From positions 1-38,263 of the forward strand of contig JAFZOG010000183.1 of NCBI GenBank assembly GCA_017550745.1: a stretch of DNA of 38,263 nucleotides. Direction: 5' to 3'. The notes under the pieces were generated by a model, which did not search any database, was not told where the DNA came from, and saw nothing but the letters and a program-made list of their open reading frames with translations. Positions within the stretch are counted from its first letter, which is position 1; the number at the start of each line of letters is the position of its first letter. Shown piece by piece: positions 1 through 36,625 of this stretch. The position numbers and the translations under genes were made by a program. Source of the stretch: Clostridia bacterium. Lineage in GTDB: Bacteria; Bacillota; Clostridia; Christensenellales; Aristaeellaceae.

Positions 1-239
1 GCGTGTACGTCGCCGGGGCCCGAAGCGCCCGGAAAACCTGCCCTTGGGCCGGTTTTCAGCGTAGGGCGGGCCGGAAGGCCCCGGGCAGGCAACAGAATGT
101 TGCTTCCTATATCAATTTCCGGCCGTAAAAAGAGCGTTTTCACTTGCGAAAATGCCTTTTTACAGGAAATTGATGTCTCGAATGAAAGCGGAATCCCGAT
201 TCCGCTTTCATTCGCACCATTCAGCGTTAGCTGAATGGT
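1..239 (-). repeat. Mosaic palindromic repeat, copy 1 (cut by window edge)
   Basis: Most of this stretch is the reverse complement of part of the repeat at 4621-5028, so the copy lies in the opposite orientation and continues beyond the left edge. It is a chain of hairpins: a CGCCGGGGCCC block, GAAAACC..GGTTTTC (about 33-57), GGGCCGGAAGGCCC (about 67-80), GCAACAGAATGTTGC (about 90-104), a long stem at 111-174 (ATCAATTTCC with GGAAATTGAT), a perfect 17-bp-arm palindrome at 179-214 and ACCATTCAGC-GTTA-GCTGAATGGT at 216-239. The order of the last modules differs from a simple inversion of copy 2, which points to module shuffling. Confidence 0.85.
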
Positions 240-571
240 AACTTAGAAGTATCCTCATTTTCCTCCATATCGGGTTTCAGCATTTTTTTCAGCCTGTCCT
301 GCATTCTTTTCACCGCCTCCAGGTTCAGCGAATACAGCGTCCGCTGCCCGTCCCGGCGGCTTTGCACGATGCCCGCGTCGATCAGCAGCTTCATATCGTG
401 GGACAGTGTGGGCTGGGTGATATGGAAGTGTTCCAGCAGCGCGCACCCGCACATCTCCCCTTTGGACAGCACGTCAATGATCTGCACCCGCTTCGGGTCG
501 GACAGCGCTTTAAACACCTTTGCCATTTTCACATATTGCTCTTCCACTGCATCCACATCCCATCTTTTCAA
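227..571 (-). CDS. ArsR/SmtB-family winged-helix repressor
   Basis: A small DNA-binding repressor (114 residues from the start chosen here). The core MAKVFKALSDPKRVQIIDVL and the recognition helix region ITQPTLSHDMKLLIDAGIV are typical of the ArsR family. An EMCGC motif stands where ArsR proteins carry the ELCVCD metal(loid)-sensing cysteines, so thiol-based sensing of a metal, arsenical or redox signal is possible. The open frame reaches upstream to 637, but a good minus-strand promoter (596-624) lies inside that stretch, so the start must be further in. A TTG at 569-571 preceded by AGGAAGG (581-587) fits best. The last codons (KLPFS and stop) are encoded by the hairpin of the adjacent repeat. 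The likely target is its own divergent promoter region and the membrane gene at 735. Confidence 0.85.
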   Translation of the reverse strand: MKRWDVDAVEEQYVKMAKVFKALSDPKRVQIIDVLSKGEMCGCALLEHFHITQPTLSHDMKLLIDAGIVQSRRDGQRTLYSLNLEAVKRMQDRLKKMLKPDMEENEDTSKLPFS

Positions 572-595
572 AAACCGTCGCCTTCCTGCACCCCG

Positions 596-624
596 ATTAT
601 AGCATAAGCGCCTTTCATCGGCAA
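596..624 (-). promoter_or_regulatory. Promoter of the ArsR-type gene
   Basis: On the minus strand TTGCCG (619-624) and TATAAT (596-601) are separated by 17 bases. Transcription would begin near 589, which excludes the upstream ATG at 637 as the start codon of the repressor. Confidence 0.7.
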
Positions 625-639
625 GGGATGTTTCCATGC

Positions 640-668
640 TTGCGGGCAGGTGGCCTTTGTGCTATAAT
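640..668 (+). promoter_or_regulatory. Promoter of the YczE-like gene
   Basis: TTGCGG (640-645), 17 bases, then TATAAT (663-668) with an upstream TG (extended -10). It is back to back with the ArsR-type promoter; the two -35 boxes are only 15 bases apart, so one bound repressor could affect both. Confidence 0.7.
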
Positions 669-734
669 TTTGTGGCCGCCGGCAAAACGCCGGTGTGTTT
701 CCATCGAATGGCCAGATTTTGAGGAACGGGATGT

Positions 735-1397
735 ATGAACAGGAAACGCATTTTTCTCCAATGGCTGCAGATCGCGGCGGGGCTGCTGGTTTTTTCTTTC
801 GGGGTGCATCTGACGATCTTTGCCAACATCGGCCTCGCCCCGTGGGACTGCCTGGGCATGGGCATATCCTACCACACACCGCTGAACTACGGGCTGTCCA
901 TGACGGTGATGGCGGTCATCATCCTGCTGATCGACCTGTGCCTGCGGGAGCGCATCGGGTACGGAACCATCATTGATTCGCTTCTGACGGGCAACTTCGT
1001 GCAGATGTTCAACGACCTGAATCCTTTTCCGGAAAACCATAACCTTTGGCTGGGCATCGCGCTGATGCTCACCGGGTTTGTGTTCATGGCGCTGGGCATG
1101 TGGATCTATATGAAAGCTGCCCAGTGCTGCGGGCCGCGGGATTCCCTGCTGGTGGGCCTTGGCAAACGAATGCCGAAGCTGCCCATCGGCGTGGTGGAGA
1201 TCCTGCTCTGGGCCGCGGTGCTGCTGGCCGGCTGGCTGCTGGGCGGGCCGGTGGGCATCGGCACGCTCATCAGCACCTTCGCCGCCGGCGTCATCATGCA
1301 GCTGGTCTATAACGCGGTGCGCTTTGAACCCAGAGATATAAAACACCGGGACGTCATCGAGGTGACAAAAGCGCTCATCGGAAAAACGCAGGGATGA
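735..1397 (+). CDS. YczE/YyaS/YitT-type integral membrane protein
   Basis: A 220-residue protein with about five hydrophobic spans and the family's recognisable early segment: a glycine-rich first helix, then IGLAPWDCLGMGISY, matching the G-x-x-PWD pattern of YczE-like proteins. A second conserved patch is GYGTIIDSLLTGNF. The molecular role of the family is not settled; Bacillus YczE is linked to lipopeptide production. It is divergent from the ArsR-type repressor and ends at a clear terminator, so it is a single-gene unit. Nothing in it suggests an arsenite or heavy-metal pump (no metal-binding motif, too short), so the link with the repressor is positional only. Confidence 0.8.
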   Translation: MNRKRIFLQWLQIAAGLLVFSFGVHLTIFANIGLAPWDCLGMGISYHTPLNYGLSMTVMAVIILLIDLCLRERIGYGTIIDSLLTGNFVQMFNDLNPFPENHNLWLGIALMLTGFVFMALGMWIYMKAAQCCGPRDSLLVGLGKRMPKLPIGVVEILLWAAVLLAGWLLGGPVGIGTLISTFAAGVIMQLVYNAVRFEPRDIKHRDVIEVTKALIGKTQG

Positions 1398-1400
1398 ATA

Positions 1401-1430
1401 CGCAGGGATGAATCGCTCCCTGCGTTTTTT
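1401..1430 (+). terminator. Rho-independent terminator after the YczE-like gene
   Basis: CGCAGGGA (1401-1408) pairs with TCCCTGCG (1417-1424), followed by six T. The left arm with its flank (ACGCAGGGATGAAT) is present twice in tandem (1386-1399 and 1400-1413), a small local duplication that overlaps the end of the gene. Confidence 0.85.
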
Positions 1431-1476
1431 CATCTATCATGGTTTTGCCGTTTCATAAGCGCTTTCAGTGCGTAAC

Positions 1477-1538
1477 GGGGACGCAGCAGGGGGGCTTGGG
1501 CCCTTGGTTCAGTCTTGGGCGCAGCGCCCAGCGTCCCC
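1477..1538. repeat. Palindromic stem-loop ahead of feoA
   Basis: GGGGACGC (1477-1484) pairs with GCGTCCCC (1531-1538) and encloses a second perfect hairpin, TGGGCG-CAG-CGCCCA (1516-1530), and a CTTGGGCCCTTGG palindrome. No T-run follows, so it is not an obvious terminator. It resembles the other GC-rich palindromic elements of this window more than a known riboswitch. Confidence 0.6.
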
Positions 1539-1615
1539 TTTGCCGGATGATTGATCGGCGTGCGGAACCTCCCGCCTGCCTCAGCATATTCTGAAAGCAC
1601 AGGAGGTGGAACGGC

Positions 1616-1846
1616 ATGAAGCGGCTGGCGGATATACCTGTAGGCGGCGTGGGCGTGGTGAGATACGCGGAGGGCGGGCTCAGCGGGCGGCTGTACGACC
1701 TGGGCTTCAACCGGGGCGCGGAGGTGAAATGCCTCTTCGCCGCGCCGGGACGCGGGATGCGGGCATACCTGGCCCGGGGCGCGGTGATCGCCCTGCGGGA
1801 GCGGGACGCCCGCGGGGTGGTGATGGAGGACAGCGAGCATGCGTAA
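1616..1846 (+). CDS. feoA: FeoA, ferrous iron transport accessory protein
   Basis: A 76-residue SH3-like cytoplasmic protein that assists FeoB in Fe(II) uptake. The features are the usual FeoA ones: an opening L-x-x-I-P-x-G, then GLSGRLYDLGFNRGAEV (the R-L-x-x-L-G-x-x-x-G-x-x-V pattern) and a C-terminal ARGAVIALRERDARGVVM strand pair. A strong AGGAGG (1601-1606) is 9 bases ahead of the ATG. Its end overlaps the start of feoB by 8 bases, so translation is probably coupled. No Fur box was identified with confidence. Confidence 0.9.
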   Translation: MKRLADIPVGGVGVVRYAEGGLSGRLYDLGFNRGAEVKCLFAAPGRGMRAYLARGAVIALRERDARGVVMEDSEHA

Positions 1847-3875
1847 AGCGCGGGTCATTGTCCTGGCCGGGAACCCCAACGTGGGCAAATCCACCGTATT
1901 CAACGCCCTGACCGGCCTGCGCCAGCATACGGGCAACTGGCCCGGGAAAACGGTCAGCGCGGCCCGTGGCGCCTGCGTCCTGGACGGGGAAGCGTTCACG
2001 GTCATCGACACCCCCGGCGCTTATTCCCTCCGGGCGCGTTCCGCCGAAGAGGAAGCGGCGATGGAGGCCGTCTGCTTTGGCCGCGCCGACGCGGTGGTCG
2101 TGGTATGCGACGGCGCGCGGCTGGAAAGGAATCTCAACCTGCTTTATCAGGTGATGGAGATCACGGACCGGGCCGTGCTGTGCGTGAACCTGCTGGACGA
2201 AGCGGAAAAGCAGGGGGTGCGTGTCGACCTGAAAGCCCTGTCCCTGTGCCTTGGCATTCCCGTGGTGGGCGCCTGCGCCCGGGACGGAAAGGGAATGAAA
2301 GCGCTGCTGCGGGCCGCGAAGGGCGTCATGGAGGCCTCCCCGGCGCCGCGGAAGGCCCCCTGCCCTGAAGCCCTTGAACCTGCCGCCGCCGCGCTGGCGG
2401 AGGCATTGCGGGAGCCGCTGAACGGCGCTGCCGCCCCCCGCTTCGCGGCCCTGCGGCTGATGGAAAACGACGAATGCTTCCGGCGGGAGCTGGCAAAGCA
2501 TATGGTGATCAACGCTTCCGTGGAAGCGGCGGTGGAACGCGCCCGGAGCCAAACCGGGATGACCCCGGACGAAATCGCCGAGGCCGTTACGCAAAGCGTG
2601 TATCGGGCGGCGGAGGAAACCTGCAAAAGAGCCGTAAAAAAGCCCGCAGGAACCGGGGAAAACCAGCTGAAATGGGACCGCAGGCTCACAGGCTTCCTGG
2701 GCGTGCCGGTGATGCTGGCCCTGCTGGCGCTGGTGTTTTTCATCACCCTGAAAGGGGCGAACCTGCCTTCCGCGTGGCTGGCAGCGGGCTTTGGGGAATT
2801 GGAAGCGCTGCTGCAAAGAGCCCTGGACGGCCTGGGCCTGCCGCCCTTCTTAACGGCGCTGCTCACCGAAGGCGCGTTCCGCACGGCGGGGAAGGTCACC
2901 TCCGTGATGCTGCCGCCCATGGCGATTTTCTTTCCCTTGTTCACGCTGCTGGAGGACTGCGGGTATCTGCCCCGGGTCGCTTTCACCCTGGACGGCGTGT
3001 TTGAGCGCTGCCACGCCTGCGGCAAGCAGGCCCTGACCATGTGCATGGGCTGCGGGTGCAACGCGGTGGGCGTGATGGGCTGCCGCATCATCGACAGCCC
3101 GCGGGAGCGGATGATCGCCGTGCTGACGAACTGCTTCATTCCCTGCAACGGGCGTTTTCCCGCGCTGTTCGTGATGCTGACGCTGTTCTTTTCCGGCGGG
3201 GGCCCGGGCGGGGCGCTGCTGTCCGCCGGGCTGCTCACCGGGCTGGCGGCGCTTGCTGTGGGGGTGACGCTGCTTTCCTCCCGGCTGCTGTCCGTGACGG
3301 TTTTGAAGGGCGTTCCTTCTTCCTATACCCTGGAGCTGCCGCCCTACCGCAGGCCGCAGTTTGGCCGGGTGATCGCGCGCTCGGCGCTGGACAGGACGCT
3401 GTTCATGCTGGGCCGGGCCGTGGCAGTGGCCGCGCCCGCGGGAATCATCATCTTCCTGCTTTCCCGCGTGCCTGCGGGCGGGCGGCCGCTGCTGGGCCAT
3501 ATCACCGATTTCCTGGATCCCCTGGGGCGGCTGATGGGCCTGGACGGGGTGATCCTGGCGGGCTTCCTGCTGGGCTTTCCGGCCAATGAAATCGTGCTGC
3601 CCATGATCGTGACGGCGTACACGGCGGGGGGCGTCCTCCGGGAGGCGGCGGACTTGAACGCGCTGGGCGCGGTTCTTCGCGCCAACGGCTGGACAACGCT
3701 TACGGCCCTGAACCTGATGCTCTTTTTCCTCTTTCATTTCCCCTGCTCCACCGCGCTGCTCACCATCCGCAGGGAAACCGGCAGCGCCAAATGGACGGCT
3801 TTCGCCTTCGCCCTGCCCACGTGCATCGGCGTGCTCCTGTGCGTGCTCACGGCCGCGATTGCAAAATATTTCTGA
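1839..3875 (+). CDS. feoB: FeoB, GTP-dependent ferrous iron permease
   Basis: A 678-residue inner-membrane Fe(II) transporter. The N-terminal G domain has G1 GNPNVGKST (about residues 11-19), the switch region TGNWPGKTV, G3 DTPGAYSL and G4 NLLD; a helical insertion domain follows to about residue 270. The C-terminal part has about eight membrane segments with two Gate regions: VMLPPMAIFFPLFTLLEDCG and a second ending in FPANEIVLPMI. The segment CHACGKQALTMCMGCGC is very cysteine-rich, with more Cys in VMGC and CFIPCNGRFP; this form is seen in clostridial FeoB and differs from the enterobacterial type. No FeoC gene follows. The length is normal. Confidence 0.95.
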   Translation: MRKARVIVLAGNPNVGKSTVFNALTGLRQHTGNWPGKTVSAARGACVLDGEAFTVIDTPGAYSLRARSAEEEAAMEAVCFGRADAVVVVCDGARLERNLNLLYQVMEITDRAVLCVNLLDEAEKQGVRVDLKALSLCLGIPVVGACARDGKGMKALLRAAKGVMEASPAPRKAPCPEALEPAAAALAEALREPLNGAAAPRFAALRLMENDECFRRELAKHMVINASVEAAVERARSQTGMTPDEIAEAVTQSVYRAAEETCKRAVKKPAGTGENQLKWDRRLTGFLGVPVMLALLALVFFITLKGANLPSAWLAAGFGELEALLQRALDGLGLPPFLTALLTEGAFRTAGKVTSVMLPPMAIFFPLFTLLEDCGYLPRVAFTLDGVFERCHACGKQALTMCMGCGCNAVGVMGCRIIDSPRERMIAVLTNCFIPCNGRFPALFVMLTLFFSGGGPGGALLSAGLLTGLAALAVGVTLLSSRLLSVTVLKGVPSSYTLELPPYRRPQFGRVIARSALDRTLFMLGRAVAVAAPAGIIIFLLSRVPAGGRPLLGHITDFLDPLGRLMGLDGVILAGFLLGFPANEIVLPMIVTAYTAGGVLREAADLNALGAVLRANGWTTLTALNLMLFFLFHFPCSTALLTIRRETGSAKWTAFAFALPTCIGVLLCVLTAAIAKYF

Positions 3876-3900
3876 GAACATGTTTTTTTCCGGCAGGAAT

Positions 3901-3929
3901 TTTCCATTTTCCGTCGTATAAGATACAAT
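3901..3929 (+). promoter_or_regulatory. Probable promoter of hpf
   Basis: TTTCCA (3901-3906), 17 bases, then TACAAT (3924-3929). The -35 is weak. The leader contains a short hairpin, GCCGGA-GGT-TTCCGGC (about 3960-3975), before the ribosome binding site. Confidence 0.45.
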
Positions 3930-4004
3930 AGAAACAGAGGATGAAAAATAGGATAAAAAAGCCGGAGGTTTCCGGCCATATAACGAGAGAGGAGCTGTTC
4001 CTGA

Positions 4005-4544
4005 ATGAAGACCAACATCACCGCGAAAAACATGATCGTGACCCCGGGCATTACCAACCGGATCATGAAAAAAACCGCCACCATGGAGCGGTATTTGAGG
4101 CCGGATACAGAAATGTTTGTACGCCTGCGCCGGGAACGGGATGAACGCATTTGCGAAATCACCGTTCCCATGAAGGATGTGACCCTGCGCGCCGAGTCCT
4201 CCAGCAAGGATAACCTGTTTATGTCCATCGACAGCGCCCTGGCCAAGCTGGAGCGCCAGATCCTGCGCCACCGCACCAAGCTGGAAAAGCGCCTGCGGGA
4301 GGACGCCTACAAGGAAGAAACCGCCGAATACATCGAGGACATCTCCGCTTACGGCCCCTCCGACCGCAAGGTGGTCCGCACCAAGGAATTCCCCGTGCGC
4401 CCCATGGCCGTGGAGGACGCCATCCTGCAAATGGAGCTGCTGGGCCACACCTTCTTCGTGTTCGTCAATATCGAAACCGAGCGCACCAACGTGCTGTATC
4501 TGCGCAAGGACGGAAACCTGGGCCTGATGGTGCCGGAAGCCTGA
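4005..4544 (+). CDS. hpf: Long-form ribosome hibernation-promoting factor
   Basis: A 179-residue protein that binds the decoding region of the 30S subunit and, in its long form, dimerises 70S ribosomes into inactive 100S particles during slow growth. Residues 1-100 form the S30AE/sigma-54-modulation domain (KNMIVTPGITNRIMKKTA, then ERICEITVPMKDVTLRAE). After a charged linker, residues about 120-179 are the C-terminal dimerisation domain, recognised from VVRTKEFPVRPMAVEDAILQ and the run from FFVFVNIETERTNVLYLRKD to the end. A GAGAGGAG ribosome binding site precedes the ATG. It stands alone and is followed by a stem-loop. Confidence 0.95.
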   Translation: MKTNITAKNMIVTPGITNRIMKKTATMERYLRPDTEMFVRLRRERDERICEITVPMKDVTLRAESSSKDNLFMSIDSALAKLERQILRHRTKLEKRLREDAYKEETAEYIEDISAYGPSDRKVVRTKEFPVRPMAVEDAILQMELLGHTFFVFVNIETERTNVLYLRKDGNLGLMVPEA

Positions 4545-4568
4545 GGGTAAAAAACGGATTTTTCTTAT

Positions 4569-4594
4569 GGGGGTCCCGGTTCTCCGGGGCTCCC
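4569..4594 (+). terminator. Probable terminator after hpf
   Basis: GGGGGTCCCGG (4569-4579) pairs with CCGGGGCTCCC (4584-4594), 11 pairs with two G-T wobbles and a TTCT loop. Only GTTT follows, so the T-run is weak; the preceding run of A/T could favour the other strand. Confidence 0.55.
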
Positions 4595-4620
4595 GTTTCA
4601 GTTGGCGCATTTGCTTTGTA

Positions 4621-5028
4621 CGAATGAAAGCGGAATCCCGATTCCGCTGAGGCTGTCGAATAAGTTTTTTCGCCAGCCTGCGAATGAAAATGGAATCAGG
4701 ATTCCATTTTCATTCGATGCATCCATTTCCTGCAAAAATGGGTTTCCGACCTCCAAAGGAGGCCAAAAACCCTATTTTTGCGGCCGGAAATGGATATAGG
4801 AAGCAACATTCTGTTGCCTGCCCGGGGCCTTCCGGCCCGCCCTACGCTGAAAACCGGCCCAAGGGCAGGTTTTCCGGGCGCTTCGGGCCCCGGCGACGTA
4901 CACGCCGCCGCCTGTGGATAAAAATCGAAGGGCTGCGGCCCTTCGATGCATCCCGGGGTTTTTCGACAATCTGAGCGGAATCCCGATTCCGCTTTCATTC
5001 GTACCATTCAGCGTTAGCTGAATGGCAG
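4621..5028 (+). repeat. Mosaic palindromic repeat, copy 2 (most complete)
   Basis: This fills most of the 600-base gap between hpf and the SH3 protein gene. Modules in order: a cut CGAATGAAAGCGG palindrome (4621-4648); AGGCTGTCGAA..TTCGCCAGCCT (4651-4679); a perfect 17-bp-arm palindrome around AG (4681-4716); a 75-base stem with outer arms ATCCATTTCC (4721-4730) and GGAAATGGAT (4786-4795); GCAACATTCTGTTGC (4803-4817); GGGCCTTCCGGCCC; GAAAACC..GGTTTTC (4848-4873); a CGACGTACACG block; CGAAGGGC-TGC-GGCCCTTCG (4926-4945); a partial CGGAATCCCGATTCCG palindrome; and ACCATTCAGC-GTTA-GCTGAATGG (5003-5025). No coding sequence is supported. Confidence 0.9.
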
Positions 5029-36297: not shown

Positions 36298-36625
36298 ACA
36301 GCCGCCAGGCGGCGGCTGTCAGGCTGTCGAAAAAGTATTTTTCGCCAGCCTGCGAATGAAAATGGAATCAGGATTCCGTTTTCATTCGATGCATCCATTT
36401 CCTGCAAAAATGGGTTTCCGACCTCCAAAGGAGGCCAAAAACCCTATTTTTGCGGCCGGAAATGGATATAGGAAGCAACATTCTGTTGCTCCTCGGCGAC
36501 GTACACGCCGCCGCCTGCGGATTACAATCGAAGGGCTGCGGCCCTTCGATGCATCCCAGGGGGTTCTCCGACAGCCTGACAGCCGCCAGGCGGCGGCTGT
36601 CGTCCGGATTGTCGAAAAATCTTTT
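36298..36625 (+). repeat. Mosaic palindromic repeat, copy 3, framed by identical palindromes
   Basis: Same orientation and module order as copy 2 from AGGCTGTCGAA (about 36321) to the CGAAGGGC hairpin and GATGCATCCC, but with the central GGGCCTTCCGGCCC and GAAAACC..GGTTTTC modules (about 70 bases) missing between GCAACATTCTGTTGC and CGGCGACGTACACG. The copy is bracketed by two exact palindromes, ACAGCCGCC-AGGC-GGCGGCTGT, at 36298-36319 and 36579-36600, which are not in copy 2. The left one may act as the terminator of the Dlt-like operon. It fills the 360-base gap before the convergent YesN-type gene. Confidence 0.9.

Follow-up and report, generated by a model that had tools for sequence, protein, structure and literature searches.

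A family of hairpin-built miniature transposons with IS1182-type ends and duplicated target hairpins in a genus of Clostridia

The intergenic hairpin repeats present in a stretch of 38,263 nucleotides from a Clostridia bacterium of the Aristaeellaceae (contig JAFZOG010000183.1 of assembly GCA_017550745.1; hereafter, the window) are a family of small non-autonomous transposons, or miniature inverted-repeat transposable elements (MITEs), each built as a row of hairpins. We consider it highly probable that, taken as a whole, the following account of them is correct: they carry ends of the IS1182 type, are moved by a transposase acting in trans, insert at the feet of hairpins, duplicate the hairpin that they enter and have their own stems kept complementary at the level of DNA. 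The original prediction, drawn from the first 5028 nucleotides, had described a single mosaic of hairpins with compensatory changes. The window is an entire contig (C44; C followed by a number denotes a contig) of a 3.75 Mb assembly in 186 contigs that is 88.8% complete with 7.5% contamination. We refer to its genome as G000, and to a relative that contains a burst of near-identical copies as G002.

Structure of the elements

Type I elements consist, in this order, of an a-hairpin, a b-hairpin, a long stem, a small hairpin, GC-rich modules that vary in make-up, a distal hairpin and the right inverted repeat, with little or no spacing between the first hairpins. The a-hairpin is formed by the left inverted repeat and its own complement. 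These are short elements with terminal repeats, as expected of MITEs: their ends are close in sequence to CAGNNTGTCGAAAAA, with the inverted form at the right, and 51 of the 52 copies studied measure 245-364 bp, the other one being 527 bp long.

Type II elements have inner modules in common with type I, but their ends are GTTACCATTCAGC. Three copies in the window's own genome have both ends, and two of them are flanked by 8-bp direct repeats (L007 on C174 and L030 on C28); a further copy, L200, shows a direct repeat of about 9 bp by eye. The third two-ended copy, on C75 (L071 1382-1604, which is G000 C75:16881-17103), is a hybrid that joins a type II end to a type I end at the long GC-rich palindrome, which suggests that palindromes may serve as crossover points. 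Solitary a-hairpins of about 32 bp, that is, two inverted repeats back to back, were also seen at G000 C19:15249, C59:29986, C75:31479 and C111:7174; by eye they lie near gene ends, and they are possibly minimal remnants of the elements.

Duplication of the target hairpin

DDE transposases usually duplicate a fixed number of target bases. For the type I elements, the duplicated segment is a hairpin-forming one of 18-38 bp, and it flanks 37 of the 52 copies as a direct repeat (10 of 17 in the own genome and 27 of 35 in relatives), as opposed to 2 of 2652 control pairings, in which left and right flanks were taken from different copies. The two copies of the hairpin are identical in 27 of these 37 cases and touch both ends of the element, with no gap, in 31. 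Moreover, when the empty sites are reconstructed, the centre of the duplicated part coincides with the dyad in 20 of the 37 and lies within 1.5 nt of it in 29. Hairpins of at least 7 bp adjoin both ends in 34 of the 52 copies, while the controls, counted for one side only, gave 201 of 2780 at random positions and 21 of 260 when the position was moved outwards by 8-20 nt. A junction-directed reaction would be expected to give duplications of just this kind, equal in length to the target hairpin. The replacement known from IS1272, in which the stem-loop is deleted and nothing is duplicated, is not the pattern here, given that a hairpin stands on both sides of 37 of the 52 copies.

Most of the duplicated hairpins resemble transcription terminators. 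Among the 37, a right T-run alone accompanies 12, a left A-run alone 9 and both runs 6; since T-runs and A-runs are both seen (27 of 37 in total), terminator-like hairpins are targeted in both orientations. In the G002 burst, most of the copies are nearly identical, and each of 18 out of 19 has a duplicated hairpin of its own. For one of these sites, inspection by eye of the 230 bases that follow the gene showed just one hairpin, with a T-run, and no element at the orthologous loci of four out of seven relatives.

Connection with the IS1182 family

Relatives of the IS1182 family have ends like CAG[N]CTGTCGAAAAA, and the MITEs share them; the protein of one such copy, L131 of the commensal Gemmiger sp. 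An120, scores 397 bits against NF033551. A scan of the named genomes with a transposase fragment from the own genome gave 58 loci, mostly in records named as Clostridia. The analysis of ends used 38 of them, those left out being mostly short pieces at contig ends; both ends were found in 22, and dropping three in which their order was impossible left 19 copies, some of them shortened (639-1141 bp). Hairpins of at least 7 bp adjoin both ends in 18 of the 19 (random one-sided control, 39 of 570), so that the insertion sequences and the MITEs have this target rule in common, and in 7 of the 19 the same hairpin is duplicated on both sides.

The genome of the window also contains fragments of IS1182 transposases, one of which, P0001, matches DDE_Tnp_1_6 at 92 bits. 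At two contig ends, the frame of such a fragment is preceded, at a distance of about 70 bases, by a type I left end, which is exact on C133 and differs by one base on C168, where it adjoins a b-hairpin. IS1182-like matches in the genomes G004 and G007 (L101 and L102) were considered as the partner and rejected, as they have no matching ends; by eye, we take them to be transposases of the IS5 type.

The original prediction had pointed to a transposase of the Y1 type, the TnpA-REP that moves repetitive extragenic palindromes (REPs) and bacterial interspersed mosaic elements (BIMEs), or to some other transposase recognising the ends. It was the second of these possibilities that gained support, as the ends match insertion sequences of the IS1182 (DDE) family, although the own genome has offered only fragments of the enzyme. 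Elements of the REP/BIME type do share with these repeats their intergenic palindromes, mosaic clusters and high copy number, but the terminal inverted repeats matching those of IS1182 insertion sequences and the long target duplications do not fit the REP pattern and make this origin hardly credible, although no search aimed at a Y1 transposase was made. To our knowledge, REPs carry neither terminal inverted repeats nor target duplications.

Covariation of the stems

The compensatory changes that were first described in the window are present. The pair C4724-G4792 of one element (copy 2) corresponds to A114-T171 in another (copy 1), and C4733-G4780 to T126-A162; likewise, the 17-bp palindromes at 179-214 and 4681-4716 have arms that are each 100% complementary and sequences that differ on both arms. 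A T-G wobble had also been claimed for a third copy, and such a pair does occur in the matching palindrome at 36353-36388, which lies beyond the 5028 nucleotides concerned and for which no position had been given.

The proposed test, covariation among copies from the genome and its relatives, bears out the claim that the hairpins themselves are maintained. Our alignment (A1) includes 42 of the 52 copies, all distinct and 240-262 bp long, from 10 genomes of one genus, with 18 of the 42 coming from G002. Over 84 pairs, 97.7% of the cells pair, compared with 84.9% after shuffling; both sides change in 43 of the 84 pairs (28.6 shuffled); and the covariation score is 0.338, against 0.114 for shuffled alignments and at most 0.083 for slid versions. 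No shuffle out of 500 reached the observed values of these three measures, with the caveat that related sequences may exceed shuffles in such a tool without any structure. Of the five measures in all, one, the number of further pair types, was 77 versus 71.1 and was reached by 13 of the 500 shuffles. Because most G002 copies are nearly identical, we also kept only one copy per genome, and found that 792 of 821 cells were Watson-Crick pairs and that at least two Watson-Crick types occurred in 38 of 83 pairs, compared with 3-10 when the partner was slid. Bases 4-6 in the left arm of the a-hairpin agree with the inner arm in 40 of the 42 copies, but with the right end of the element in only 3; it is thus the hairpin that is kept and not the pair of ends.

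How the arms stay complementary is a separate question. Within the G002 burst, the hairpin heads of 18 copies are found in one orientation in 13 and inverted in 5, with two exact inverted pairs, and all four combinations occur at one head pair, which points to exchange at the DNA level. One could then argue, along the lines of the alternative named in the original prediction, that arm exchange at quasi-palindromes, whether through inversion or template switching, is the only source of the paired changes and that the hairpin is not under selection. The inverted heads among near-identical copies and the almost complete lack of wobble are what this explanation expects, and arm exchange does seem to occur. 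As the sole cause, we consider it unlikely. In 42 of 42 copies, the long stem is interrupted asymmetrically, with TG facing five bases (CGGNC in 38 and CGATC in 4), and in a second alignment (A2, n=23) TG stands opposite CGGNC in 23 of 23; unselected correction of one arm by the other should erase such an asymmetry. Nor does the right end track the left hairpin. At 36390-36470 of the window and in the aligned copies, the conserved interruption is accompanied by a one-base bulge, and the two together resemble a recognition motif.

DNA rather than RNA

The original prediction had left the choice between an RNA and a DNA structure read by a protein. If the chain of hairpins were a structured RNA, such as an element of 3' untranslated regions or a small RNA, the covariation would reflect selection on RNA folding. 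Besides the covariation itself, the location of the elements at gene ends, where they would be transcribed, favors this idea, as do two features that every one of the 42 copies has in its long stem, the asymmetric interruption and a constant T-G pair (alignment columns 87/141); the latter slightly raises the standing of the RNA. We treated this pair as part of the interruption, while RNAalifold pairs it. The composition of the pairs, in contrast, speaks against an RNA. With the constant T-G left out, the 42 copies have 23 G-T cells and 3351 Watson-Crick cells, so that wobble is 0.7% of the standard pairs, or 1.9% (65 of 3416) with the constant pair counted; G-U pairs were 20 of 175 (11%) in seven tRNAs, each of which was folded by itself for minimum free energy rather than on a consensus. 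A-C mismatches, at 43, exceed the G-T pairs, and with one copy per genome and the constant pair left out, there are 15 A-C and 2 G-T. As an A-C is a G-U on the other strand, the minus strand would therefore be the better RNA candidate, with about 2% of wobble. Furthermore, the direction in which the terminator-like hairpins are read is not fixed with respect to the element, and no Rfam family matches the window at gathering thresholds, so that no known structured RNA was recognized there.

The wobble test thus led us to reject the elements as one RNA as a first choice, the A-C excess and the constant T-G being a faint signal, and we rate a structured RNA as quite improbable. Because the stems are nearly pure Watson-Crick and heads are inverted among near-identical copies, a DNA-level cause of the paired changes is likelier than RNA. 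Of the two options that the original prediction had offered, the DNA structure fits the biology of the target, and the RNA is less supported on account of the rare G-T pairs and the two orientations. More generally, an intergenic repeat may show strong covariation of base pairs without being an RNA.

Proposed mechanism and points against it

In the mechanism that we consider most likely, a DDE transposase of the IS1182 type acts in trans and joins the element to both feet of a target hairpin extruded as a cruciform, the target usually being an intrinsic transcription terminator. Subsequent repair would duplicate the entire hairpin and leave the host gene with one on each side. Because repair would duplicate the whole hairpin, the length of the duplication (18-38 bp) would be set by the target and not by a fixed stagger. 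Insertions that leave a hairpin on both sides probably do little harm, and this suggests how a transposon may fill a genome at gene ends while each gene keeps its terminator hairpin. As the element is a row of hairpins that are themselves targets, elements would nest and shuffle; in fact, copy 2 of the window is inserted in a hairpin of a type II element. The stems could be kept complementary at the level of DNA partly through arm exchange or inversion and partly through recognition of a structure.

A bolder version is possible, and we put it forward tentatively. The transposase might read a four-way DNA junction both at the target, where the cruciform of the terminator is duplicated whole whatever its size, and at the left end of the element itself, where the a-hairpin stays paired even as its sequence diverges from the inverted repeat. 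The long stem, whose asymmetric interruption is conserved, might be a further DNA structure read by a protein, and with terminators duplicated, insertions might be close to neutral, so that copies could become numerous.

Several observations weigh against the account that we favor. With respect to the target, 15 of the 52 copies, 7 of them in the own genome, have no duplication at the threshold used, and some of these may reflect mis-called ends (one copy of 527 bp) or decay. Eight of the 37 duplications are centring outliers with larger offsets, which we left uncorrected; only 26 of the 37 duplicated segments have outermost bases that complement each other, and 28 have complementary bases at the next position. 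Neither a T-run nor an A-run accompanies 10 of the 37 duplicated hairpins, and at three of the seven orthologous empty loci there is, by eye, no such single terminator hairpin. The insertion of copy 2 itself fell inside a longer palindrome, whose foot is 11 pairs further out. The constant T-G pair of the long stem also counts slightly against our account. With respect to the partner, no IS1182 transposase above the family cut-off, but only fragments, was found in 13 fragmentary genomes (9 of the genus); on C61, a transposase fragment has no matching right end after its stop; and the left end in G002, CAGTTTGTC, has drifted away from IS1182 ends. Finally, the two adjoining hairpins differ in 12 of the 19 IS1182 copies, which would require either a misassembly or that copies have recombined. 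Two copies in one bin share a hairpin, which stands at the left of L118 and at the right of L116, a pattern that either of these events would give. The copies with differing hairpins are L114, L115, L117, L118, L122, L126, L128, L129, L132, L136, L142 and L144.

Copy number and distribution

The repeats are abundant in the own genome. A degenerate pattern for the palindrome has 35 matches per strand and the distal hairpin 38 sites, while the reversed-pattern control gave 0 in each case. A covariance model of the long stem gave at least 38 matches (38 candidates scored), and a 200-bp query at least 54 (40 of 134 candidates scored). These numbers are lower bounds, because contigs end within repeats or at an IS1182 fragment, as observed for C145, C19, C6, C5, C133, C168 and C61.

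Among 21 genomes searched with the third copy of the window, matches were obtained in 13 of 13 genomes of the genus (own genome included) and in none of the 8 that belong to the order but to other families. The covariance model was run on a sample of 121 genomes of the order, in which it matched the own genome and of which 99, not listed singly, had no match; neither did it match the 6 listed genomes from other genera of the same family. A lone weak match outside the family, at G099:C3:4222-4303 (35 bits), was taken as probable chance.

Elements of the window

The features of the window are given in Table 1. Repeats are present at both ends of the first 5028 nucleotides, as first described, but they belong to two distinct elements and not to one feature, and between them lie genes for an ArsR-type regulator, FeoB and a ribosome-associated protein. 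Since copy 1 has a single end within the window, its own target duplication is not visible. Copy 2, of type I, is nested in a type II remnant, whose b-hairpin it splits, and is flanked by two copies of a 20-bp palindrome. ARAGORN found no tRNA in the window.

Table 1. Positions of the hairpin elements and their modules in the window
Feature	Positions	Strand	Remarks
Type II element (copy 1), truncated by contig start	1-239	-	From sequence; complete relatives of the type known elsewhere in the genome
GC-rich part, copy 1	1-88		
Small hairpin, copy 1	89-103		
Long stem, copy 1	111-174		
b-hairpin, copy 1	179-214		
k-hairpin, copy 1	217-238		
Left piece of split b-hairpin, type II remnant	4621-4648	.	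4629-4648, left copy of duplicated palindrome
Type I element (copy 2), 325 bp	4649-4973	+	
a-hairpin, copy 2	4649-4680		
b-hairpin, copy 2	4681-4716		
Long stem, copy 2	4721-4795		
Small hairpin, copy 2	4803-4817		Followed by GC-rich modules
Distal hairpin, copy 2	4925-4946		Right end extends to 4973
Right piece of split b-hairpin	4974-5001	.	4974-4993, right copy of 20-bp duplicated palindrome
k-hairpin of type II remnant hosting copy 2	5004-5025	-	
Left copy of 22-bp duplicated hairpin	36298-36319	.	Terminator-like stem, no T-run
Type I element (third copy), 259 bp	36320-36578	+	Compact, complete
Right copy of 22-bp duplicated hairpin	36579-36600	.	

Comparison with known systems

That members of the IS1182 family target palindromes is already known, having been reported by Siguier et al. 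(2015), as cited in PMC4923244 and PMC5678879. Those members are of the same family as the ends of the present elements and have palindromic targets like theirs, but according to Wan et al. (PMC5678879) detailed data were not given, whereas here hairpin-length duplications were counted with controls. Among the matches listed from the openly accessible literature, ISfinder aside, there is no description of this MITE family or of a hairpin-length duplication with counts and controls.

Other repeats resemble these elements in part. BOX, RUP and SPRITE of the pneumococcus are also short, intergenic, structured, clustering and mutually inserting (PMC10969869), but they are other elements in other hosts, and the main text of that paper does not mention IS1182. 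Insertion sequences that target REPs likewise use palindromes (PMC1525189); ISPsy8 and ISRm22, as presented there, insert at the axis of the palindrome with direct repeats of 0-6 bp, whereas the cuts observed here are at or near the feet.

The closest parallel is with IS1272 and TnSha1, which are IS1182-family elements that, in the accounts cited here, target hairpins, terminators included, without sequence specificity, as the present elements do (PMC4923244, PMC5678879). On insertion, they remove the stem-loop and make no duplication (PMC4923244); in the present elements, which in addition are non-autonomous, the target hairpin is instead duplicated. Wan et al. (2017) proposed a cruciform model for IS1272 and, in the scheme of that paper, drew a hypothetical branch whose outcome, when joining takes place at the 5' feet, is a stem-loop duplicated in full (PMC5678879). 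The elements described here are the product of that branch as drawn there, which thereby gains dozens of natural examples and a ready mini-substrate.

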